From Sipunculus nudus (taxonomy: Eukaryota; Annelida; Sipuncula; Golfingiida; Sipunculidae): a DNA stretch of 64,000 nucleotides. Below are positions 10,050 through 57,484 of the stretch, in pieces. The notes beneath the pieces were generated by a model. The model ran no database searches. It was not told the DNA's origin and saw nothing but the letters and a program-made list of their open reading frames with translations. The position numbers and the translations under genes are program-made. The stretch is taken from the NCBI GenBank assembly GCA_026874595.1, contig CM049310.1, positions 83,427,056 to 83,491,055 of the forward strand, given 5' to 3'. How positions within the stretch are numbered: position 1 is the first letter of the stretch; every line of letters begins with the position of its first letter.

Positions 10050-13000
10050 AATCAAACAGGTACCCCCTGACTCAATCAAGCATGGTTAAATCAACAGGTA
10101 CTCCCTGACTCAACCAAGCATGGTTAAATCAACAGGTACTCCCTGACTAAAAAAGGCATTAGAAAACCAACCGTTACATCCACAACTGATCAGGCATGGT
10201 CCACCAATAGATTATCCAAAGAACAATTTAGGCATTATCAAACCAACAGGTGGCCAATGAACAAATTGGACATTATCCACCAACAGGTAACCCAGAACCA
10301 ATTCAGCATTATCTGCCAACAGGTACCCCAGATCCAATCAGGCCTCACCATCAAAAGGTACCCCAGAACCAATCAGACATTATCCACTGACAGGAACCTC
10401 AGAACCAATCAGGCATTATCCACCAACAGGTTACCCCCAGAACCAATCAGGCCTCACCATCAAAAGGTACCCCAGAACCAATCAGGCATTATCCACTGAC
10501 AGGAACCTCAGAACCAATCAGGCATTTTCCACCAACAGGTACCCAGAACCAATCAGGCCTCACCATCAAAAGGTACCCCAGAACCAATCAGGCATTATCC
10601 ACTGACAGAATCAATCAGGCATTATCCACCAACAGGTACCCCAGAACCAATCAGGCATTATCCACTGACAGGAACCTCAGAACCAATCAGGCATTATCCA
10701 CCAACAGGTACCCCAGAACCAAACAGGCATTATCCACTGACAGGTAACCAAGAATCAATCGGGCATTATCCGTACACAGGAACCTCAGAACCAATCAGGC
10801 ATTATCCACCAACAGGTAACCCAGAACCAATCAGCCATTATCCACTGACAGGTAACCCAGAATCAATCAGGCATTATCCACCAACAGGTACCCCAGAACC
10901 AATCAGGCATTATCCACTGACAGGAACCTCAGAACCAATCAGGCATTATCCACCAACAGGTACCCCAGAACCAAACAGGCATTATCCACTGACAGGTAAC
11001 CAAGAATCAATCAGGCATTATCCGTACACAGGAACCTCAGAACCAATCAGGCATTATCCACCAACAGGTAACCCAGAACCAATCAGCCATTATCCACTGA
11101 CAGGTAACCCAGAATCAATCAGGCATTATCCACCAACAGGTACCCCAGAACCAATCAGGCATTATCCACTGACAGGAACCTCAGAACCAATCAGGCATTA
11201 TCCACCAACAGGTACCCCAGAACCAAACAGGCATTATCCACTGACAGGTAACCAAGAATCAATCGGGCATTATCCGTACACAGGAACCTCAGAACCAATC
11301 AGGCATTATCCACCAACAGGTAACCCAGAACCAATCAGCCATTATCCACTAACAGGTAACCAAGAATCAATCAGGCATTATCCTTTGACAGTTACCCCAG
11401 AACCAATCAGGCATTATCCGTCAACAGGGAACCCAGAACCAATCAGGCATTATCCGCCAACAGGTACCCCAGAACCAATCAGGCTTATCCACCAATAGGT
11501 ACAACAAAACCAACCGGGCATTATCCGCAAACAGGTACCCCAGAACCAATCAGGCTTATCCAACAATAGGTACAACAAAACCAATCGGGCATTATCCGCA
11601 AACAGGTACCCCAGAACCAATCAGGCTTATCCACCAATTTAGGCATTATCAAACCAACAGGTGGCCAATGAACAAATTGGACATTATCCACCAACAGGTA
11701 ACCCAGAACCAATTCAGCATTATCTGCCAACAGGTACCCCAGATCCAATCAGGCCTCACCATCAAAAGGTACCCCAGAACCAATCAGACATTATCCACTG
11801 ACAGGAACCTCAGAACCAATCAGGCATTATCCACCAACAGGTTACCCCAGAACCAATCAGGCCTCACCATCAAAAGGTACCCCAGAACCAATCAGGCATT
11901 ATCCACTGACAGGAACCTCAGAACCAATCAGGCATTATCCACCAACAGGTACCCAGAACCAATCAGGCCTCACCATCAAAAGGTACCCCAGAACCAATCA
12001 GGCATTATCCACTGACAGAACCAATCAGGCATTATCCACCAACAGGTACCCCAGAACCAATCAGGCATTATCCACTGACAGGAACCTCAGAACCAATCAG
12101 GCATTATCCACCAACAGGTACCCCAGAACCAAACAGGCATTATCCACTGACAGGTAACCAAGAATCAATCGGGCATTATCCGTACACAGGAACCTCAGAA
12201 CCAATCAGGCATTATCCACCAACAGGTAACCCAGAACCAATCAGCCATTATCCACTGACAGGTAACCCAGAATCAATCAGGCATTATCCACCAACAGGTA
12301 CCCCAGAACCAATCAGGCATTATCCACTGACAGGAACCTCAGAACCAATCAGGCATTATCCACCAACAGGTACCCCAGAACCAAACAGGCATTATCCACT
12401 GACAGGTAACCAAGAATCAATCAGGCATTATCTGTACACAGGAACCTCAGAACCAATCAGGCATTATCCACCAACGGGTAACCCAGAACCAATCAGCCAT
12501 TATCCACTGACAGGTAACCCAGAATCAATCAGGCATTATCCACCAACAGGTACCCCAGAACCAATCAGGCATTATCCACTGACAGGAACCTCAGAACCAA
12601 TCAGGCATTATCCACCAACAGGTTAATCAGAACCAAACAGGCATTATCCACTGACAGGTAACCAAGAATCAATCAGGCATTATCCACTGACAGGAACCTC
12701 AGAACTAATCAGGCATTATCCACCAACAGGTAACCCAGAACCAAACAGGCATTATCCACTGACAGGTAACCCAGAATCAATCAGGCATTATCCTTAGACA
12801 GTTACCCCAGAACCAATCAGGCATTATCTGTCAACAGGGAACCCAGAACCAATCAGGCATTATCCGCCAACAGGTACCCCAGAACCAATCAGGCTTATCC
12901 ACCAATAGGTACAACAAAACCAACCGGGCATTATCCGCAAACAGGTACCCCAGAACCAATCAGGCTTATCCAACAATAGGTACAACAAAACCAATCGGGC

Positions 13001-40548: not shown

Positions 40549-40639
40549 ATTTATGATGGTGTTTATGTGTCTGGTGTTAAGTGTGTTTGCCACCATCCCG
40601 ATATTTGAAGGGATCACGGGTTATATGTTGTACTTTATG
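40549..40639 (+). CDS. KCNQ1: KCNQ exon A1: S1 segment, first alternative
   Basis: This 91-nt exon encodes S1 and the start of the S1-S2 loop. The first base completes a split codon and 30 codons follow. It is bordered by a pyrimidine-rich acceptor (tgcattcgtttcag) and a strong donor (gtgagt). The residues begin FMMVFMCLVLSVFATIP and end YMLYFM. They align without gaps to S1 of human KCNQ1, including the Ser at position 11 of the exon, which corresponds to human S140. It is the partner of exon A2 at 44874: same length, same phases, 13 of 30 residues identical. Adding or dropping 91 nt breaks the frame, so only one of the two can be used in a productive mRNA. It lies 4.2 kb before A2, so steric exclusion between splice sites is unlikely to enforce the choice. 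No stop or frameshift is seen, and both copies look functional. Confidence 0.88.
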
Positions 40640-43600
40640 GTGAGTACGAGTCGTGGCGTCAGACCGCGCATGCCTGCCTGTCAAAATGTCTCTTCGTCTT
40701 CGTCAAACTGCCATGCGCTGGATGAGTGTTGCCACGGCTAAACATTACCATCTTCACTCTAACCCTTGTATTTCCTTACAGTTGTGCCAGCATTGTCATG
40801 GACAGCATTGTACTATATTTAACCTGGTGTATATATAGTCAGCACATGTTATATATTCGTCATTGAGCTAATCTGCACCCGCTGAAAGAGATGACCACAC
40901 TCATTATTAACATGACCACAGCTACTCACACTCTCAGAGCAATGGTACTTACAAACTCAGGCTTTACTTGTTAATTTACACATTCCATGTCAGCACTGAC
41001 AGATTTTGAGCACTGACTATTTTGCAACAACAAGAAGATTGCTTAAATTTATAGGCTTGGTAGATATGTAAAAAGGTAATATGTGGCACTGTTATTGTGT
41101 GACTAACAAGATCTGGAGGATCTATAAATGTAAAAAAAAGATACAACATGTTTTATTTGGTTTTATCAGGTATTTTTTCTATTTATTAGTTCATATTTAT
41201 ATATAGATACCCTGGTCATATAAAAAATAAATTGAGTATCCCACGAGTGACAGATCTACAGAACCAGAAATTACATCACACAGAATTATTGAAAAAAAGA
41301 ATTGTAACCCATTTATACCAATGACAGGTCAAACAAATAAGGAATTGTAATTCATTCCTACAACTGACAGGACTGTTGAAAAAAAAATTAATTGTAATAA
41401 TTTCTTACAACAGATAAATCTATCGAAAGCTGAGAATTGTTATTCTTACAACAAACAGGGAAACAGAAAAAAACTGTAACAAAATCCTCTAACTACCAAG
41501 ACTACTGATGAAAAATTATTGCAACTGATCCCTGTATCTAACAAATCTAGAGAGAGAAAAAAAAAGAATTGTAAATGATTCCTATCACTGTTTGGTGTGT
41601 GTGTCATATCAGCAGGATTACTTAGCTTCAGTCAATGAGCTGGACAGTTATCAAATGCAAGAAATTCTTCCACTCAACTGAATATATTCAATTCTGACTT
41701 GCTGTTGAGAAATAAAAAGAAACACCTAAAAACAATGTATATTCGATAACTACCAGTAGGTAAATTTGAACCTAAAATTTTAAGGATAATTCAATATATT
41801 TATATATATAGAAAAAACCATTCAACGCTACAAAAAACGGCAAACCTGTCTTTTTTCTGCAACCATTGTTGTGAATCGCAGAAGAAGATACTTCCGACAG
41901 CAGGGAATAATTTTAACAAAACCTTGCAGCATTTAGCCATATATAGCATCATCTTGCAAAAATCAAAACAGGTGCTCTATTTATAGTATGGTGTCTCAAG
42001 TAAAGATTTAGTTGGGTTGTCTTTGGTATGATGCTGGGAATGGGTGCTCTTTGTTGCTGTGACAATGTGGGTGTCTTACGGGCTGGTTCTTTCAGCTGCG
42101 GACCCTGTAACTGTAACTAGACTGCTCTTGCCTGTCACTTTTATCCATTGGTGTTATTCGGAATGTCCTCTACGGCTGCCTCCTGTCGTCTCGCATGGCA
42201 GGGTTTTTGACTACATATTGTGTATTCTCTCATCTACCCATCTACTAATAAATCCGCTTTGATTTTATAGGTGATGGTTTCTTGTTGCCAAGGTAACCCC
42301 CTCCCAGTATATATCTACATGGTCTTACCCATGTGAGCATATGCCGTGACCTTTTGCTGCCAAAGCCCCAAACATGGACTCCTCTGCGAATTTTTGTCCT
42401 GACATGAAAATCTTCAGTTCCAGATATATCACCATTCTCAAAGATCACAACACATTTTTGAGGTTTCAATTCCAAGTAAAAAAACACAACCTTGATGTGG
42501 CTGTGTGCTATACAAAAAATACCTGATATAAAACTTTTCCATCACAATGATTTTCTAATTACAACAGGATTCTGTGTAAATGTATCATTTCCTATACTGA
42601 CTTGGACTACACTGAAGTTTCGATACCTAGGCATAAACTTAATTTCCAGACTAATAAATATATTCTAAAAAAAATCAGCCCTTCATGACCAACAATATTT
42701 CTCCATGTGTGTTTTAAATGTTGGTGAGAGAGTAGTTTTAAATTCCAATATTCAGTTCCATTTAATCAGATATCATAAATGCATCAACATTGAGACATCT
42801 GATGATACTAATATGATCTTTGACTTGTTTTGTGGTGTTTTTTTGGTGCACCAATGTATCATTAAGTACATCCCTGATAGAGACGTGTACAGGGCCATGC
42901 TGAAATGCAATCCAGAGTGACTAAAATATGATGACATCAAACCTGCTTGCTTAGTCAAGAGATCACAGACACAGCTGATCACAAGCTTCAAAACATACCT
43001 AAGTTACTTTTATGATTTAATTTAGATGTATAGTATCCTCAGTGTGAGTGCGCCTGTAAGCCAGGTGTGAACACACATGTCATTATAACGACAGCATGTT
43101 AAGGGTTGCGCCCCCATTTACCCCATGATTCTATCAAGCTGGTCCTGTTGGTTTTCTTTGTTCTAAACATAAATTTGATTATCCAACTGATTTACCCTGG
43201 AGGTGTTTGGTTCTAACAGCAGGGAATGATCCAGAGCAGGCTGTTTTTAAAAACATCCAACGCTGCCGACCAAACCCTGACATAAGGTTTGCCGCCAGGG
43301 GCGGAGTAGATGTAACGTAAACCAAACATTACCACGTGCCGGGGTCTGCACCTGTCCTGTGGGCTCCGACCCAGTGACGATCAGAGGCAGGCTTATGTAC
43401 AGGTGTACCCAGGTAGTCAGTGGTTGTCTCTTCTAATTCAAAGATCAGAGGTGGCATAATGTACAGCTGTATCCAGGCACTTATAATATGAGTGTTTGTA
43501 TGCATTTTTGACACAATGTCCTTACAATTATAAGCAGAATTATTTACAGCTGTATCTGGTAACTCTGTGTGTATGTGTGTTTGTGTGTGTCTCTGTGTGT

Positions 43601-43814
43601 TCATTCTGATGCATGAAAAGATCAGAGGCAATCAGAGGCAATCAGATGTACGGTTATCATACTGAGATGCAACTGAGTGTGTATGCCGATCTATATGTCT
43701 TCCTCACCACTGCCCCAGCAAGGACAAGAGAGGGACAAACGGACAGGTGTACAGTGACAGGAATAAGGTTTTATACATTAGAAAAAAGCAGAAATGAAGA
43801 TTCCTGGACACACA

Positions 43815-44070
43815 GGCTTTTTGATCTAGGGGTAGAACACAGGACTCATAGCCGGGAGGTCGTCATGGTGATTTCATATCTCAGTGGAGGAGCGGTGAGA
43901 TTTTCAGCATAACCCAGGGTGAGATCTCTGCTGCCTTAAACGGAAGGCTGTACCCCACAAGTATGTATTACTCACAAACGAGTGTGTCTTTTGGAGGTAC
44001 CTTGGTGTAACAACCCAGCAATAGGGATGATAACACACCCAGCATCTGCAGACATCTGCCCAGGTATTCA
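43815..44070 (+). mobile_element. tRNA-derived SINE, family 1, copy 3
   Basis: A-box-like TGATCTAGGGGTAGAACACA then AGGACTCATAGCCGGGAGGTC, a decayed B box (GTGATTTCATATC), and the shared body CCCAGGGTGAGATCTCTGC, ACAAACGAGTGTGTCTTTTGG. Same orientation as copy 1. Confidence 0.72.
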
Positions 44071-44158
44071 GTGTGCTTTAGTCTTCATCACAATCTCCAC
44101 AGAAATGACCGTAGGGGGTCTAACAGGTATACTGGTGCATCTAGGTCATGGATTATCA

Positions 44159-44185
44159 GTGTGTGTGTGTGTGTGTGTGTGTGTG
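44159..44185. repeat. (TG)n microsatellite upstream of exon A2
   Basis: About 13 TG units, 690 nt before exon A2. UG repeats in pre-mRNA can bind CELF/TDP-43 type proteins. Any role in exon choice is inference. Confidence 0.9.
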
Positions 44186-44873
44186 GACTGAGAATGTGAT
44201 CAGGTATCTTTCACAAGATCAGTGGCAGAAATAAAGCCAAAGCTGTATACTCAATGTAGATGAATTTCTGAGTGCATGAACTGAGAAATATTCAATCAGT
44301 GGCCCTTCTTTCCTGAATTTTTTAAATATGAAATACCCTTCCTCATTTGAAATTCACCCCTTAATCTAATAAACAGCGCATGAGTAATTCCCCTTAAGCA
44401 AAATAAGCTCCAAGTCTGTATATACCTCTGTACCTCCTCATAATACAATGTATTCTCTCTCCTGCCATGCTATATATATATACAAACAGTGCTTCTCTCT
44501 GAACAGCAAGTGTAAACAAATATAAACAAGTGACACAGCCATCGTTATGAGTGGTATTTTGTGTTTTATCTTTTTATTAAAGAAAAGTATCAGTCCTCAG
44601 CTGTTACTTCCATGCACCTTAAAACATAAAGTGAACTTCCAAGCATTCAAAACATCCCGAGGTGTAAACAAATCCTGATACAGGTCTGGCATATGACCAC
44701 ATGGGAGATTTATACATTATACCTGTTGTCTTGTATTGTCCAATCCTACCAGACAGGCAGATGTCACCCTGGTTACCCAGTGATTGACAGCCCATCCCGG
44801 GCTCTGATTGGCTCCTGTATGATGACTCCTGGGTGTCCCTTGTTCTGACTGGTCTCTGTGTGTGCCCCTGCAG

Positions 44874-44964
44874 GTTTCTGGTGATCCTAATGTGTCTGCT
44901 GCTTAGCATTTTCTCATCTGTCCCCACATTTGAAGACATTGCCTACAAAGTACTCTATTACTTG
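44874..44964 (+). CDS. KCNQ1: KCNQ exon A2: S1 segment, second alternative
   Basis: This 91-nt exon has the same phases as A1: one base completing a codon, 30 codons, and a codon-boundary end. The acceptor is tgtgcccctgcag and the donor is gtgagt. It encodes FLVILMCLLLSIFSSVP followed by TFEDIAYKVLYYL, the S1 helix and the extracellular S1-S2 loop. At its start (FLVILMCLLLS) it looks nearer to human KCNQ1 S1 than A1 does. The loop differs in charge from A1: Asp at residue 21 and Lys at 25, where A1 has Gly and Tyr. A (TG)n tract sits about 690 nt upstream in the intron. It is followed after 1.96 kb by exon B1. Presumed mutually exclusive with A1; this is inferred from length and phase, with no transcript seen. 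Confidence 0.93.
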
Positions 44965-46920
44965 GTGAGTATTTAGCGAGGCATGGCTCTCTGAGACTCT
45001 AGTGTATGCCTTATATGCCTGCATGTTCTTTATTTCTGCATGGTTCCTCTAGTCTTATATTGGTTCTGTTCGTTTTGGAAAGTACAATTCATTCATGATT
45101 TGTACACAAACACAATCCTACCTTATCATGTATTTTTCATGAAATCTTATTATATTTCAAGGGGCCTATTTATTCATTTCTAAGAATTTCCATTTGAGAA
45201 TTTGAGTTTCATATTCTTAAAGCAGATGAACTTGAGTCTGATTATTTTGTAATTGATATTTGTTTATATTCAAAACTGTCTTTATAACCCTATCCTCATG
45301 GCATTATTCATATGTAATCTTTAATGAATGGTTATGGTAACTACATAGTCACATATGTTAAGATTAATTATGCCAAAGATAAAAAAACTGCCAAGGGTGT
45401 AGAAGTTGTATAGAAATTGTAACATTAATTGTAATTACTTTTCATTTGTTTTCATGCAAAAATTATTTTGGATGAAAACAGATTTGTAAAATTTTTTTTT
45501 TCAAGTCATAATATCACTCTAGTTTTCTAAAATAATAGACAAACAAATGTTCAAGGTAAAAACAGCTTTCAAAAGAGATGTTGTTCTGTATTTCTGTACC
45601 ATAGACAAAACTGTACCTCATCCTCAGCCACAGAGAATGCTTGACACATTATTGGACCTAAAAGTCTCTCATCAGTTAACTACACTCCGCACGCAGCCGT
45701 TGTACACTGCAGTCATCCCACATCTCTTTTTGTGTAACCTCTGCTTTCTATAGCAAGATTCTCAGGGTTCAACCACCAGGGTGGGCACGCAGCAAAGAAG
45801 TTTAATCAGACCAATGAGAGCATGATATCACATTGTGCATCCAGCTCCAAATTTTAAACATGTGACACCTGCTCTTGTTTGTCTGAGGACACCGGTTCTG
45901 GAACAGGGCCAAGAATCAGACCAATGAGAGCTGGTGTCAAGGGTTAATCAGACCAATGAGAGCTGGTGTCAAGGGTTAATAACACTAATGAGAGTGGGTG
46001 TTGCATGTGTAAAATTTCAAGCTGGATGCACAAAGTGATACCACGCACTAATTCGTCTGATTACATTTCTTAGTTCAGTGTGCACCCTGGTGGTCAAACC
46101 CAGAGAATCTTGCTATACAAAGCAGCGGTTACACGAAAAGAGATCTGAGAAGAATGCAGTGTATAACAGCTGCATGATGAGCACACAGTTACCAGTCTAG
46201 TTTACTTTACTTGGGTAATTCCCCTAAATTTGATTAATGTTTTCAACAGAGGCTTTTAACAGATACACTTAAGTCTAGTAAAGTCTACCTATGGACCATG
46301 TGAACCTATAAATGTCAGAAGGAGACTTTATCTGAGGTGTTTCAAATGGGAATTCAAATGATATTGTGATTCTTGTAACTACCAAACTACACTCTTCTTT
46401 GTGCACAGATATTGGTTTCTGGAATTTTGTTCATAGATTTTACGTAGAAACTGCATTTTACCCTTATACTGATAGTGAGGGTAAAACTTTAGAATACTAG
46501 TAAACAACTAACATTGAGTTAATTATCCACAGTGCTATTGTGTATTATTATCAGTTGCACCTACTAACATCACATTTTGATTTATAGATTTAGCTTAACT
46601 GAGCATTGTAATAAAAGTAATTAGTCAGTAGTGAGTGGTACAAATCTTGTTGTGAATTGCTTGGTTGCAGTTTTTCTTCTGGAATAAAATCAACCATATC
46701 TTTTAACATAACATGTATATATGAGTGTTTAAAATGGCAAGTCTTCCACTAACATTAGGCATGGTCCAGTGAAACCTAGCAAGCGTTTCCCCAAGGAGAT
46801 TTAAAGCTTTCATGTAAGTCAACGTAAAACTCAGTGGTTTGAGTAAAATTTAAAGTTAACAGTAACAGTAAAGTAATGTACATTCCAATTCTCCAACATG
46901 GGTATCTTGTCTCTCTCTAG
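44965..46920. other. Intron between exons A2 and B1
   Basis: 1956 nt, containing the full foldback element 45685-46186. No additional exon seen. Confidence 0.75.
45685..46186. mobile_element. Foldback/MITE family, copy 4 with ~90-bp inverted arms
   Basis: The left arm (45693-45784: GCAGCCGTTGTACACTGCAG through TAGCAAGATTCTCAGGGTTC to CCACCAGGGTG) is matched by the complement of the right arm (46083-46173: GCAGCTGTTATACACTGCAT through TAGCAAGATTCTCTGGGTTT). The interior has several AATCAGACCAATGAGAGCTGG units, two of them in direct tandem, and GTGCATCCAGCT in both orientations. This is the only copy in the window with both arms and shows the family is a long-TIR MITE. RNA from this intron could fold into a strong hairpin. 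Confidence 0.9.
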
Positions 46921-47047
46921 GAAATTGTCATGGTCATCTGGTTCTTTGTTGAGTATATTCTGCGCGTCTGGTCAGCAGGGTGTCGCTCACGTTACCAAGA
47001 GCTCTCAGGCAGGCTCAAATTTGTGCGACGACCACTATGCATTGTAG
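46921..47047 (+). CDS. KCNQ1: KCNQ exon B1: S2 and S2-S3 linker, canonical alternative
   Basis: This 127-nt exon starts on a codon boundary, has 42 codons, and ends with one base (g) that makes Asp GAT with the next exon's 'at'. The acceptor is tctctctctag and the donor gtgagt. It encodes EIVMVIWFFVEYILRVWSAG then CRSRYQELSGRLKFVRRPLC. By alignment with human KCNQ1 (numbers from memory) it keeps the gating acidic residues E160 and E170 (exon residues 1 and 11) and the charge-transfer-centre aromatic F167 (residue 8). It also keeps the basic S2-S3 linker set at 181, 183, 190, 192, 195 and 196, which is associated with PIP2. This is therefore the conventional version of S2. Its partner B2 lies 1.94 kb downstream, with 20 of 42 residues identical. 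Confidence 0.95.
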
Positions 47048-48987
47048 GTGAGTATGGGGGTATAAGCTGCTAATCAACAGTTACTGCATGGGACTCAGCT
47101 TTGTACAGATACCAGCAAAATGCCTGCAGGTCTTATCTGTATTAAAATCACATGTCCCTATTTGAGCAAAATCACTTTTTTTTCATATATTGTTTTCCTT
47201 AAGCATCTAGAATGAATTAGTTTAAGAACTTAAAATTTTACAAAACTTTCATTGGGACCAGTCTTCCAACAGAATACCTGTTTTTAAAACAAACATTAAG
47301 CATTTAGCATTTGGTTTAGAATTTTAGTTTTATATTCCAAAATATAACAAATATAATGTAAAAATTGAAACTTTGTCAGATTCAAGGACCAGGATTCAAG
47401 GCTGTCTTCTCTTTGGTTTTTAATTGACAACTGAGACATTTTAGTTGTTAAATGACTCCTAGCTGATGCTTACTTTGCTTCACAGCAGACTTTGACAATA
47501 ACTTTTTGTATGATGCCAGTTCAAAATAGTACTTAATTTTCAATTAAATCTTTTAGAAAAATTCACTCAAAGGGTATCTTGTAGCAATTTTTGTAACTTT
47601 CAAAAGGAAAAAAAAGCTCATGTCATTTTAACAGAAAACTAAAAAGTTCAGATAGTGTATACAATTCATACTTATTTACTGAATTCTCTGAAGGAAAGTG
47701 GAAAAGACCATTTTGGATCACAGGAAATAGTTCAACAGAAGTAGCACCACCTGCAGTTTACAATCACATGTCAGTCATCTGATGAATGAAGAAAGTGGCT
47801 GGGGTATTGGAGACATTTGGTAAAAGAAAGGATGAAGTAGACTGATGTACAGACAGAAAGACGGACAAACAATCAGACATGGGAAAGATGGACAGACAAT
47901 CAGACATGGGAAAGATGGACAGACAATCAGACATGGGAAAGATGGACAGACAATCAGACATGGGAAAGGTGGTCAGACAATCAGACATGGGAAAGATGGA
48001 CAGACAATCAGACATGGGAAAGGTGGACAATCAGACATGAACCATTTTAGAAGTCCTCCTTCTTACAGCGGGAGGATTTATAAAATAATATGGTTAAATC
48101 TCAAAATTATAAATCTCATATTATACCTGAATTCTCTAGCTATTGGAAATGCATACTGACAAAACAACAAATTCTTCATCCTGTGCAAAATATTTAATTG
48201 CAGACTTTTCATTAACTCTACATATGAGGTTTGCTAGGTGACATATGTAAACATTGCTAGTAAAGTGCAAAATATTTATACAGTATTACCTATGAGGAAA
48301 TCTACTGATAACAAAAATCATAGGAAGTACATAAAAAGTCTGCAGTGCTATTGTTACAACTTATATGGCAACTAATGTAAGATGACAGTGGTTCTTCTCT
48401 GAAGTAAAAAAAGAGTACTCTCCCAAAGAAAGACATTCATGCTTCTGATGAGTAGAATGAGAACCTTAATTAAGACAATGAACACCTGATGAGGATCTGC
48501 TTGATAAAGGCCTGCATGCATGTGGCTGGTTATCTGTACAGTTTTGGGCTTGGTGATGTAGAAGATAGTGCTGTCCATGTACGATGTCACAAAGAGCAGA
48601 CTGACTCAGATGAACCTTTCCATGTCTTCATAAAACTACCACACTTCACCTTTTATTAGATAAAAATGTAAGAAAAACAAAGTGAGGAAAAAAGCAAAAG
48701 AAGAACTTTGGAAACAAAAATAGTGAACTTTTCAGTGAATGTAATGGTCATACAATTGGTGAAAGAATTTTGAACAAACAAATATTTTTAATAATATTCT
48801 GTAAAAATCTGGACACATCGCAAATCTGTTTGACATTTTTCTTCCTATACTAAACAATCTGAACAAAAGTCTGAGTAAATATTCCAGTGTGACAGTTCAT
48901 GGGAAAGTGCATCTGGTCAGTCTGCTCGATAATTTGTATAGGTTTTGTAAAGAGACAATATGGATGTCATATTTTGTTACATTTCAG
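47048..48987. other. Intron between alternative S2 exons B1 and B2
   Basis: 1940 nt. The only landmark is the 27-bp minisatellite at 47852-48040. No further S2-like exon. Confidence 0.75.
47852..48040. repeat. 27-bp minisatellite between exons B1 and B2
   Basis: Seven copies of AATCAGACATGGGAAAGATG then GACAGAC (27 bp), the last spacing shortened to 23. As the unit is nine codons long, both strands stay open (QTIRHGKDG and its reverse), which is a by-product. Confidence 0.97.
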
Positions 48988-49114
48988 GAGATTGTGCTGG
49001 TTTTTGTCCTGGCCCTGGAATTTGTTCTTAGAGTATGGGCCGCTGGATATCGGGTTGCTTATTACGGCCCCCTTGGGCGACTCAAGTTCTTGTACAAGCC
49101 AACTTGTTTGTTTG
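48988..49114 (+). CDS. KCNQ1: KCNQ exon B2: S2 and S2-S3 linker, divergent alternative
   Basis: This 127-nt exon has the same length and phases as B1; its final g also gives Asp with exon C. The acceptor is gttacatttcag. The donor gtaggt is weaker than the gtgagt of the other alternative exons. It encodes EIVLVFVLALEFVLRVWAAG then YRVAYYGPLGRLKFLYKPTC. The two acidic S2 residues remain (residues 1 and 11), but residue 8, the position of the charge-transfer-centre Phe (F167 in human KCNQ1), is Leu. In the linker, human K183 corresponds to Ala and R195 to Tyr, while R190, R192 (Lys) and K196 are kept. The open frame and the retained RVW, GRLKF and KP motifs argue for a functional exon. Divergence sits at gating and lipid-contact positions, so altered voltage dependence is inferred. 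Possible cryptic or unused exon status cannot be excluded without RNA. Confidence 0.9.
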
Positions 49115-54078: not shown

Positions 54079-54254
54079 ATCTTGTAGTCATATCAGCAAG
54101 CATTGTGATATTATGCATCGGCAGCAGTGGCCAGGTTTTTGCCACATCAGCCCTGCGAGGATTGCGTTTCTTCCAGATACTGCGCATGGTGCGCGTGGAC
54201 CGCAGAGGAGGGTCGTGGAAACTACTTGGCTCAGTGGTTTGGGCCCACAGACAG
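54079..54254 (+). CDS. KCNQ1: KCNQ exon C: S3, S4 voltage sensor, S4-S5 linker
   Basis: This 176-nt exon begins with two bases completing Asp (the S3 acidic countercharge, D202 in human KCNQ1) and adds 58 codons, ending on a codon boundary. Acceptor tctttctgtcttgcag, donor gtaaga. S3 reads [14 protein letters not shown]. The S4 stretch [20 protein letters not shown] has Arg at R1, R2, R4 and R6, Gln at the third position (a KCNQ hallmark), and Arg where human KCNQ1 has His240. The linker is [16 protein letters not shown]. The exon is undivided, as in vertebrate KCNQ2-5; vertebrate KCNQ1 splits the same 176 nt into 79 and 97 (lengths from memory). It serves all S1/S2 isoforms because both B exons end in the same phase. 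Confidence 0.97.
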
Positions 54255-55590
54255 GTAAGATGCACTGTATAGGAATCCACCCAGTGAATGCAAAAGTTGC
54301 TCTTGTTTTCTAGGCCACTCTATAGCTAGGATAACAGGCATTTTTGCTGCCAGGTAACCTGCACAATGGTAAGTTGAAGGAGTCCCACTGCAGGAAAATT
54401 GCTTGTTTCATATATATAAATATTGGTAGGTCACACACCCAGTTTTTTTTTTCACTAGGTGAACCATCACCATGGCATTTATTCTATGTCATCTGGGTTT
54501 AATATACTTTACAATCATCATTTGAAGCATGGGGTACTGCTACTTATTCAGTACTATTTGCAGCATCAATAATTGCTGAACCTACATCAGTATTTAAGAA
54601 GCAATATTTTAATTAGATACTTTTTGGATAAAGTATGTGTCATACAAAAGAGTTTTACCTGAACAATTTGCTCATCATAAATTTTCAAATCTAACATCAA
54701 ATATGGTTAATAAATTGTATATATGCTTCTCAGCTTATATCAGAACCAAATATGCCAAAACAACATGTGTTTAGGCAAAAAAAAAAAAGGTTTGGTTCTC
54801 AGGCACTTTTTTTTCAGAAATCAATGTGGGCAGGTGTTTTTTTTTTTTAATGTTTCAATCAAAAATGTCAAATGATAGGGGAAAAGCATGATTATAACAG
54901 ATTCAGTCTGCTAAACAAGTAAAAGCACTACATAAAAAAGGAAATTTTCTCAAAATTGTATGATTTTATCTTCTTGAAAGTAATGTTCGAGTGGCTGGAG
55001 CTCAAAATTGGTAAGTTTCTATTGAAAATCAAAATAAAAATTTTTTTATGCGGGAGTTTGAAATTGACACGGGTGGTGCCTGAGAACTATACCTTTTATT
55101 TATTTTTGCCTTAGTGGGTTTAAAGAGAGACGTCTGAGTATTGGTCTTCACACCTGTGTGTCTTTCATCTGTTCTCCTCCCACCTTGTAACAGTAAACCT
55201 CGCTTGTCCATCACACCTGTCAAATTTCACCCACACCTTCACCTCGTAACCCTGCTGACCTCACCTGTATCTGGGTCAGACACCAGAGGAATTCAGTACA
55301 GAAGAAACATCAGGAACAGTGCCAAAAACTGCATAGACTCAAGAAATAGTGCCATTTCTCACTGTCTTACTTTGGGTTTGGCAGTAATACATATCTTATA
55401 TAAATATCACAGGGTATAATTTTTGCATTAAGATGATATTTGAGATATATTACAAATGCACCATATTTCAGTAATGGCCCAAGAAAAACATTTCTGAAGT
55501 GACACTAAACTGCAGTTATTTTCAAATAGGTTATGTGGAATCTCTACTATAGTTCAGGAGTTATTCACAACTCTGTACATATTTTTACAG
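54255..55590. other. Intron between exons C and D
   Basis: 1336 nt. Its end carries the duplicated exon D start at 55558-55580. Poly-A and poly-T runs lie near 54777-54850. No other exon recognised. Confidence 0.75.
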
Positions 55591-55613
55591 GAGTTATTCA
55601 CAACTCTGTACAT
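55555..55613 (+). repeat. Duplicated exon D start with alternative in-frame acceptor
   Basis: A 26-nt exact direct repeat (cag plus the first 23 nt of exon D) at offset 33: 55555-55580 and 55588-55613, separated by atttttac. Either cag can act as acceptor. Using the upstream one adds 33 nt without a stop, encoding [11 protein letters not shown] before the normal [10 protein letters not shown]. The canonical acceptor's own polypyrimidine tract is only the short atttttac spacer, while the upstream site is preceded by ctactatagttcag. Which is used cannot be told from sequence; the family alignment favours the downstream one. Confidence 0.9.
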
Positions 55614-55719
55614 TGGCTTCTTGGCACTCATCTTCTCATCGTTCCTCGTCTTCCTCGCTGAGAAGGACAAAAACCCTACCAAGTTTGGCACCTATGCAGA
55701 TGCCCTCTGGTGGGGAGTG
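55591..55719 (+). CDS. KCNQ1: KCNQ exon D: S5, turret and pore helix start
   Basis: This 129-nt exon has 43 in-frame codons. Residues 1-25 form S5 ([20 protein letters not shown] then FLAEK), residues 26-34 the short extracellular turret (DKNPTKFGT), and residues 35-43 the pore-helix start YADALWWGV. The turret is four residues shorter than in human KCNQ1. Leu at residue 6 replaces the Trp that KCNQ2-5 use to bind retigabine, supporting the KCNQ1 affinity. The donor is gtgagt. The acceptor (tacatatttttacag) lies inside a local duplication: the first 23 nt of the exon plus the preceding cag also occur 33 nt upstream, so a second acceptor at 55557 could extend the exon in frame by 11 residues (see separate entry). 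Confidence 0.96.
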
Positions 55720-56012: not shown

Positions 56013-56123
56013 ATCACCTTATGCACCGTTGGATACGGAGATTCAGTGCCAATCACTTGGGCAGGAAAACTTATAGCAGCATTTTGTGCCATTTGTGGTA
56101 TTTCATTCTTTGCACTCCCTGCA
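56013..56123 (+). CDS. KCNQ1: KCNQ exon E: selectivity filter and S6
   Basis: This 111-nt exon has 37 codons, both ends on codon boundaries. It starts inside the pore helix ([19 protein letters not shown]), with the K+ selectivity signature TVGYGD at residues 5-10, followed by S6 ([18 protein letters not shown]) carrying the start of the PAG hinge that is completed by the next exon. Acceptor tctgtttctttttcag, donor gtaagt. The length matches the conserved 111-nt KCNQ exon. Unusual residues compared with human KCNQ1 are Cys at the T311 position, two residues before the filter's Val, and Ser in place of Lys after GYGD. The intron between exons D and E is only 293 nt, the shortest in the gene. 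Confidence 0.97.
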
Positions 56124-57299: not shown

Positions 57300-57484
57300 G
57301 GTATTTTGGGATCAGGCTTTGCCTTGAAAGTGCAACAGCAGCAGCGACAGAAGCACTTGATTCGCAGGAGGGTACCTGCAGCGAACCTTATACAGTGTCT
57401 GTGGCGGTGCTATGCTGCCGACGAAAACTCAATGTCTGTCGCAACGTGGAAGATGCACCTCAAACCCTGCCCATCTCCTCAAAG
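57300..57484 (+). CDS. KCNQ1: KCNQ exon F: end of S6 and calmodulin-binding helix A
   Basis: This 185-nt exon has 61 codons plus two bases (AG). It encodes GILGSGFALKV, the cytoplasmic end of S6 completing the PAG hinge, then QQQQRQKHLIRRR and the IQ-type calmodulin site AANLIQCLWRCYAADEN (helix A), followed by VATWKMHLKPCPSPQ. The match to human KCNQ1 (KVQQKQRQKHF, AWRCYAAE, STWK) is the best evidence for the KCNQ1 branch. Acceptor actgtttacag, donor gtaagt. The next exon must begin with one base to complete the codon, which the candidate at 60289 does. Confidence 0.96.

Follow-up and report, generated by a model that had tools for sequence, protein, structure and literature searches.

Candidate mutually exclusive exon pairs for the S1 and S2 segments of a KCNQ channel gene in Sipunculus nudus

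A KCNQ channel gene of Sipunculus nudus carries two adjoining pairs of tandemly repeated exons, one pair for the S1 segment (A1 and A2) and one for the S2 segment (B1 and B2) of the voltage sensor. The gene lies in a 64,000-nucleotide stretch of contig CM049310.1 (called the window here; C5:83427056-83491055) of the 1.43-Gb genome, and the window carries its S1-to-S6 exons. Positions given without a prefix are those of the window. On the evidence of the sequence, we hold it highly probable that this is a second KCNQ gene whose S1 and S2 exons were each duplicated in tandem, the copies being used as mutually exclusive exons. An earlier note on this DNA had interpreted the locus in a similar way. 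Its account of the exon-pair hallmarks, of the frame logic and of constraint on both members of each pair stood up to analysis, but its naming of the gene as KCNQ1 did not.

The paired exons and the reading frame

Exon A1 (40549-40639, + strand; FMMVFMCLVLSVFATIPIFEGITGYMLYFM) encodes S1 and the S1-S2 loop, and exon A2 (44874-44964, + strand; FLVILMCLLLSIFSSVPTFEDIAYKVLYYL) encodes an alternative S1. Both are 91 nt long and run from phase 2 to phase 0. Exon B1 (46921-47047, + strand) encodes S2 and the S2-S3 linker and has the Phe of the charge-transfer centre. Exon B2 (48988-49114, + strand) encodes an alternative version of the same region, with Leu at the position of this Phe and with other residues at two linker positions that are basic in B1. 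Both B exons are 127 nt long and run from phase 0 to phase 1. The equal lengths and phases that the earlier note had described were recovered at these positions, together with AG and GT borders and an open required frame in all four exons. The amino acid identities were also as claimed there, 13/30 for A1 and A2 and 20/42 for B1 and B2.

To place these exons against chance, the 140,055 nt from exon 1 of the gene to 20 kb beyond the window (C5:83371001-83511055) were scanned for candidates, which were scored against five human KCNQ segments. Of these segments, those of KCNQ1 and KCNQ5 also came up in a PDB search. Among 85 open sense-strand AG-91-GT candidates, A1 and A2 scored 60.4 and 59.4 for S1, and the next best scored -4.0. 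Likewise, B1 and B2 scored 131.4 and 101.2 for S2 among 44 open AG-127-GT candidates, followed by -10.6. The best antisense scores were -0.4 for S1 (79 candidates) and -22.6 for S2 (36 candidates). When the same region was searched by tblastn, A1 found A2 at E 1.7e-6 and B1 found B2 at E 2.5e-9. The only other matches were two weak partial ones, of 18 residues with A2 (E 0.21) and of 19 residues with B2 (E 0.049), which were taken as chance. Neither tblastn nor the candidate scan gave a convincing third copy of an S1 or S2 exon in the region. Within each pair the exons adjoin, are similar in length and sequence, share the same frame and have compatible splice sites, as in the description of mutually exclusive exon clusters in PMC3923563. 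The paired-exon finding is genuine and well above chance.

The pairs were then examined for frame. Exon 1 is located at C5:83371697, 55 kb 5' of the window. Its coding part amounts to 416 nt, provided that the in-frame ATG used is the start, and it closes with YNFLERPKDWRSISYHLL and GT, with gtaagt beyond the border, giving a phase-2 donor. The codon that spans the junction with the A exon is GTA for A1 and GTG for A2, and is Val in both cases. When exon 1 was joined in silico to the S3-S6 exons by way of all 16 possible subsets of A1, A2, B1 and B2, four subsets stayed open as far as and including S6, which was read in frame, and these were exactly the products with one A and one B exon. The remaining 12 subsets ran into a stop at codon 172-226. 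Thus, the use of both or neither exon of a pair breaks the frame, as the earlier note had argued from the exon lengths. Because all 12 such products stop early, the corresponding mRNAs would be expected to be useless or to be destroyed by nonsense-mediated decay. Taken from the sequence, it is very likely that the paired exons are used in a mutually exclusive way.

In each pair, both exons are under protein constraint. By the NG86 method, A1 and A2 gave dN 0.44 and dS 2.2 (pN 0.33, pS 0.71), while B1 and B2 gave dN 0.52 with dS beyond measure (pN 0.38, pS 0.83); these values come from one genome and from a saturated synonymous measure. In both pairs the synonymous differences were near saturation, but the nonsynonymous ones were not. 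Differences at codon positions 1, 2 and 3 numbered 16, 4 and 18 of 30 for the A pair (second versus third, P 3.7e-4), and 20, 12 and 31 of 42 for the B pair (P 6.6e-5). Since free drift would strike second positions as often as third ones, the far smaller number of second-position changes shows that selection has kept both members, in agreement with the earlier note. A1 was about as close to the S1 of the paralog described below (12/30) as to A2 (13/30).

All four isoforms, with the N-terminus cut, matched the Pfam family Ion_trans at 113.1-128.3 bits (cut-off 25). The A2B2 and A1B1 sensors each matched 26 distinct PDB sequences at E ≤ 1e-5, every one of them a KCNQ channel. At 24 S2 columns the KCNQ1 gene of the same genome agrees with both human KCNQ1 and human KCNQ5; B1 keeps 17 of these and B2 keeps 15. 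The S2 glutamates (E160 and E170 in KCNQ1) are present in both. Four of the 17 columns common to B1 and those three channels differ in B2, with Phe replaced by Leu, Ser by Ala, Cys by Tyr and Arg by Tyr. Calmodulin contacts KCNQ channels at the S2-S3 linker, where Arg of B1 is replaced in B2 by Ala and by Tyr at the positions of K183 and R195 of KCNQ1 (numbering as used here). The Phe that becomes Leu is position F0, or F167 in KCNQ1, to which PMC7069725 and PMC10214144 assign the role of aromatic plug in the charge-transfer centre; the latter also counts the S2-S3 foot as belonging to the PIP2 site. From these replacements we infer that the B swap would shift voltage dependence and lipid control.

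Two KCNQ genes and a third candidate pair

That the window gene encodes a KCNQ channel, as the earlier note had it, was borne out by the PDB search: the best chains were KCNQ5 (376 bits) and KCNQ1 (361 bits), and the best non-KCNQ chain reached 97 bits, with a query that contained two stray intron residues. Vertebrates have five KCNQ genes. In the S. nudus genome two were found, the window gene on C5 and one on another contig, C6. It is the C6 gene, and not the window gene, that pairs with human KCNQ1 (support 99/99), the two sharing 89% identity across S3-S6. Its helix C is 97% identical to that of human KCNQ1 over 34 residues. The window gene, in comparison, is 70% identical to human KCNQ1 and 69% identical to KCNQ2 and KCNQ5.

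In an unrooted tree of five rows, the window gene was placed between KCNQ1 and KCNQ2/5, with paths of 0.63-0.65 on the KCNQ1 side versus 0.71-0.72. Speaking for a KCNQ2-5 type, its helix C is closer to KCNQ2 (67%) than to KCNQ1 (58%), its top PDB match over the entire domain is KCNQ5, and its S3-S4 exon is unsplit (176 nt), while the C6 gene has separate S3 and S4 exons. The sensor of the window gene taken alone gave its top scores with KCNQ1 chains, which counts against a KCNQ2-5 type. By elimination, and in view of helix C and the unsplit S3-S4 exon, the window gene may most simply be read as being of the KCNQ2-5 type.

The exons downstream of the two pairs are single. They comprise the S3-S4 exon (54079-54254, + strand, 176 nt), the S5 exon (55591-55719, + strand, 129 nt), the pore exon with the CTVGYGD filter (56013-56123, + strand, 111 nt) and an exon that encodes the last part of S6 together with helix A (57300-57484, + strand, 185 nt). 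The KCNQ C-terminal domain PF03520 follows at C5:83495534-83495704, about 4.5 kb beyond the end of the window (95.4 bits, cut-off 25). Additional copies of the S3-S4, S5 or pore exons were sought by tblastn over the same 140,055 nt (E ≤ 0.5), and none was obtained. A genome-wide search (E ≤ 1) gave one C5 match for each downstream part, S6 included. It was also observed that a 21-nt piece of the S5 exon (55593-55613) recurs 5' of its acceptor (55560-55580), so that the 3' splice site lies between the copies. Elsewhere in the window, a repetitive stretch (10128-12626) holds open frames with recurring motifs such as EPIRHYPLTGT and is likely a minisatellite, and a short tandem array of cagacaatcagacatgggaaagatgga occupies 47857-48040, inside the B1-B2 intron.

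The C6 gene has a pair of its own, at S3. Two tandem 79-nt S3 exons on the minus strand start at C6:43822418 (DFLVVTASLVVLSCGSNGQVFAASSIR) and C6:43821352, with AG and GT borders and the same phases in both. In a scan of 9,001 nt (C6:43817500-43826500; 11 candidates) they scored 57.6 and 72.8, respectively, and the next candidate scored -9.8. Since 79 is 1 mod 3, inclusion of both or neither would shift the frame. The pair gave dN 0.27 and dS 1.96, with 3 second-position versus 16 third-position differences in 25 codons (P 3.3e-4). These exons are a third candidate mutually exclusive pair and are under strong constraint. The C6 gene, in turn, has one S1 and one S2 exon in the 98,501 nt reaching from exon 1 to 4.7 kb beyond S2, a stretch that does not take in some 20 kb of intron between S2 and S3. 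For S1, the one exon scored 72.4 and the next of 57 candidates -1.2. For S2, the scores were 153.2 and -19.2 (27 candidates), and a genome-wide search gave one S2 match on C6. On this reading both KCNQ genes would have the same device, each at helices of its own.

Choice between the exons and alternative readings

We propose that one member of each pair would be spliced into each transcript, so that up to four sensors (A1B1, A1B2, A2B1 and A2B2) could be made on one common S3-S4 and pore. Exclusivity would most likely be achieved by regulated exon definition. Less certainly, an Rbfox-type or related factor may act through sequences that closely follow A2 and B1, and the frameshift with nonsense-mediated decay of transcripts carrying both or neither exon would serve as a backup. 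The choice at A would tune the outer part of S1 and the S1-S2 loop, and with them accessory subunits and sensor packing. The choice at B would switch the Phe of the charge-transfer centre to Leu and strip basic residues from the S2-S3 linker, and should shift the voltage dependence of a slow K+ current along with its PIP2 or calmodulin coupling.

Exclusion by steric hindrance was rejected. The spacings are 4,234 nt (A1-A2), 1,956 nt (A2-B1), 1,940 nt (B1-B2) and 4,964 nt (B2 to exon 4), and introns of at least 1,940 nt rule out steric exclusion between the paired exons. Incompatibility through U12 splicing was discarded also, as none of the eight exons tested showed a U12 donor or branch signal. 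For RNA docking, perfect complementarity among the downstream flanks of 150 nt extended over 9 nt at most (A2-B2), a length equalled or exceeded by 566 of 4,000 random pairs. The intron between A2 and B1 contains a 198-nt inverted repeat (45685-46181) with arms that are 80% complementary. It was considered as a splicing hairpin and dismissed, being a copy of a dispersed fold-back element that had at least 48 matches listed and 2,960 first-look candidates genome-wide, 40 of these candidates being scored. Among the 25 of 35 pairs listed, no other inverted repeat exceeded 29 nt.

Short motifs were found in the downstream flanks. TGCATG, a Fox-type motif, occurs on the + strand 56 nt past A2 (45020-45025), 73 nt past A2 (45037-45042) and 38 nt past B1 (47085-47090). 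It is absent within about 300 nt past A1 and B2, and past the S3-S4, S5 and pore exons of the window gene. There are 75 sense-strand copies in the 140-kb region, counted without overlaps; close pairs are rare, with two in the region by the same count and an overlapping pair at 48513/48517. Compared with random sites of the region, three copies in the four flanks correspond to P 0.0014 for 100-nt flanks and P 0.0076 for 200-nt flanks. An 8-mer, ATGCCTGC, a candidate splicing signal, is shared by three flanks, all on the + strand: 31 nt past A1 (40670-40677), 51 nt past A2 (45015-45022) and 73 nt past B1 (47120-47127). These are three of its five copies in the region. The genome also has an Rbfox-like RRM fragment, with 73% identity over 41 residues to a human query. 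Together, the motifs hint at a common factor, which might tie A2 to B1.

Carried further, this hint would mean that the choices are linked, the common factor driving A2 with B1 and its lack leaving A1 with B2, so that two sensors rather than four would be made in quantity. The positions of TGCATG, within 75 nt past A2 and B1 but in neither of the stretches of about 300 nt that follow A1 and B2, its P value at 100 nt and the Rbfox RRM-like fragment all point this way. However, TGCATG falls near at least two of four random sites in 1.2% of draws with 100-nt flanks and in 4.8% with 200-nt flanks, and ATGCCTGC lies past A1 as well as past A2 and B1. TGCATG is also present 5' of the S1 exon (twice) and the S4 exon of the C6 gene, for which no second copy was found, and the A1-to-B1 and A2-to-B2 junctions are equally open in frame. 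On balance we regard such linkage as doubtful.

If one member of a pair, either B2 or A1, were dying or unused, there would be a single functional form of the channel. The B2 donor GTAGGT, the weakest when judged by eye, the long branch of B2 and its loss of 4 of the 17 columns common to four other KCNQ S2 sequences are what such a relic might display. Yet the exons have changed heavily at third positions and far less at second ones, their borders and frame are intact, and B2 keeps 15 of the 24 conserved S2 columns versus 17 for B1, which leaves this account quite improbable. Nor does it seem probable that the second member is a poison exon that shifts the frame on purpose and so lowers the amount of channel. 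An early stop in 12 of 16 subsets would suit that role, but it does not require good S1 or S2 coding, and both members match KCNQ S1 or S2 under protein constraint; at most, it would be an added use. As to an artefact of assembly or haplotype, in which two alleles or genes were collapsed into one place, no observation spoke for it. Identities of merely 13/30 and 20/42 within the pairs, the ordered succession of the four exons within 8.6 kb of a single contig of 93 Mb, and single downstream exons make it exceedingly improbable.

Several observations weigh against the mutually exclusive use that we favour, or against a common factor as part of it. The motif evidence for both TGCATG and ATGCCTGC is post hoc, the motifs having been picked after looking. 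The stretch from A1 to B2 has about twice the TGCATG density of the region (9 copies in 8.9 kb), and allowing for this by a hand-made Poisson estimate puts P near 0.008 for 100-nt flanks. Among the remaining hexamers seen at least three times in the flanks, five are more enriched than TGCATG, and some 8-mer common to three of four flanks turns up in about 1% of random draws at 100 nt and in 3% at 150 nt. The S3 pair on C6 has neither TGCATG nor ATGCCTGC within 300 nt. With regard to the exons, B1 is closer to the paralog S2 (24/42) than to B2 (20/42), and B2 must therefore have changed much. B2 may also be used as a minor exon, since its donor is by eye the weakest and no branch of the S2 tree is longer than its own. 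The exon trees, with long branches and without strong support for A or B, gave no date for the duplications. A scan of a genome-contig collection found no KCNQ gene of another animal, 23 of 23 loci being bacterial by title.

Known systems and significance

Voltage-gated Ca2+ and Na+ channels are four-domain single chains, in which an exon swap alters part of one domain. KCNQ channels are tetramers of subunits, and one exon choice can therefore alter all four sensors. In vertebrate KCNQ genes there is one exon each at S1 and S2, and diversity comes from paralogs. The window gene resembles vertebrate KCNQ1-5 in the phases, lengths (91 and 127 nt) and sequence of its S1 and S2 exons.

Exon swaps of this kind are known from other channels. 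In section 16 of PMC9741552, mutually exclusive or tandem duplicated exons are described as enriched in voltage-gated channels, many of them in CaV and NaV genes, with three exon pairs per gene in CACNA1C, CACNA1D and cacophony. The Ca2+ and Na+ channels treated there (CACNA1C/D, cacophony, Ca-alpha1T and para) resemble the window gene in that tandem homologous exons are exchanged one for another, and the SCN genes do so in having mutually exclusive channel exons (PMC5740500, in part). Unlike in those channels, the two adjoining pairs of the window gene span two neighbouring helices of one sensor. The same section of PMC9741552 lists three tandem exon events for slowpoke (BK), with effects on calcium sensitivity and conductance, and two for NALCN, with an effect on ion selectivity. 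Here too exons are exchanged, in slowpoke within a gene for a K+ channel and in NALCN within a channel gene of an invertebrate, but the effects given there differ from a replacement of S1 and S2 in a KCNQ sensor. For vertebrate KCNQ4, four splice variants (v1-4) with altered channel properties are described in part of PMC10018040, exon 9 being under RBM24, and, in contrast to the window gene, duplicated S1 or S2 exons do not figure in that part.

KCNQ is not named in section 16 of PMC9741552, nor in the main text of PMC9741552, PMC5740500, PMC7954323 or PMC3923563. The portions of PMC10018040 and PMC12194696 covered report no mutually exclusive exons of KCNQ. None appeared in the titles and abstract starts of the open-licence PMC papers that literature searches brought up, although annotations or supplements may show them. 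As far as we could look, then, the kind of arrangement is known, and the adjoining S1 and S2 pairs in one KCNQ gene, plus the S3 pair in its paralog, are new within the literature covered.

KCNQ (M-type) currents set resting excitability. If one gene issues four sensors on one pore, it would provide a ready-made set of S1 and S2 swaps from nature. With such a set it could be asked whether the charge-transfer centre works with Leu in place of Phe, what part the S2-S3 linker plays in control by PIP2 or calmodulin, and how the choices at S1 and S2 combine. We tentatively suggest, at less than even confidence, that in this lineage the diversity of KCNQ sensors is produced by splicing and not by gene copies, with swappable S1 and S2 in the window gene and a swappable S3 in the C6 gene, that the subunits of the window gene mix freely, and that one factor could switch S1 and S2 together. 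Free mixing of four subunit types in tetramers would allow 35 subunit compositions. A joint switch of S1 and S2 by one factor would couple cell type to sensor setting, including the replacement of the charge-transfer Phe. With the S3 pair on C6, the arrangement suggests that splicing can substitute for the expansion of paralogs seen in vertebrates.

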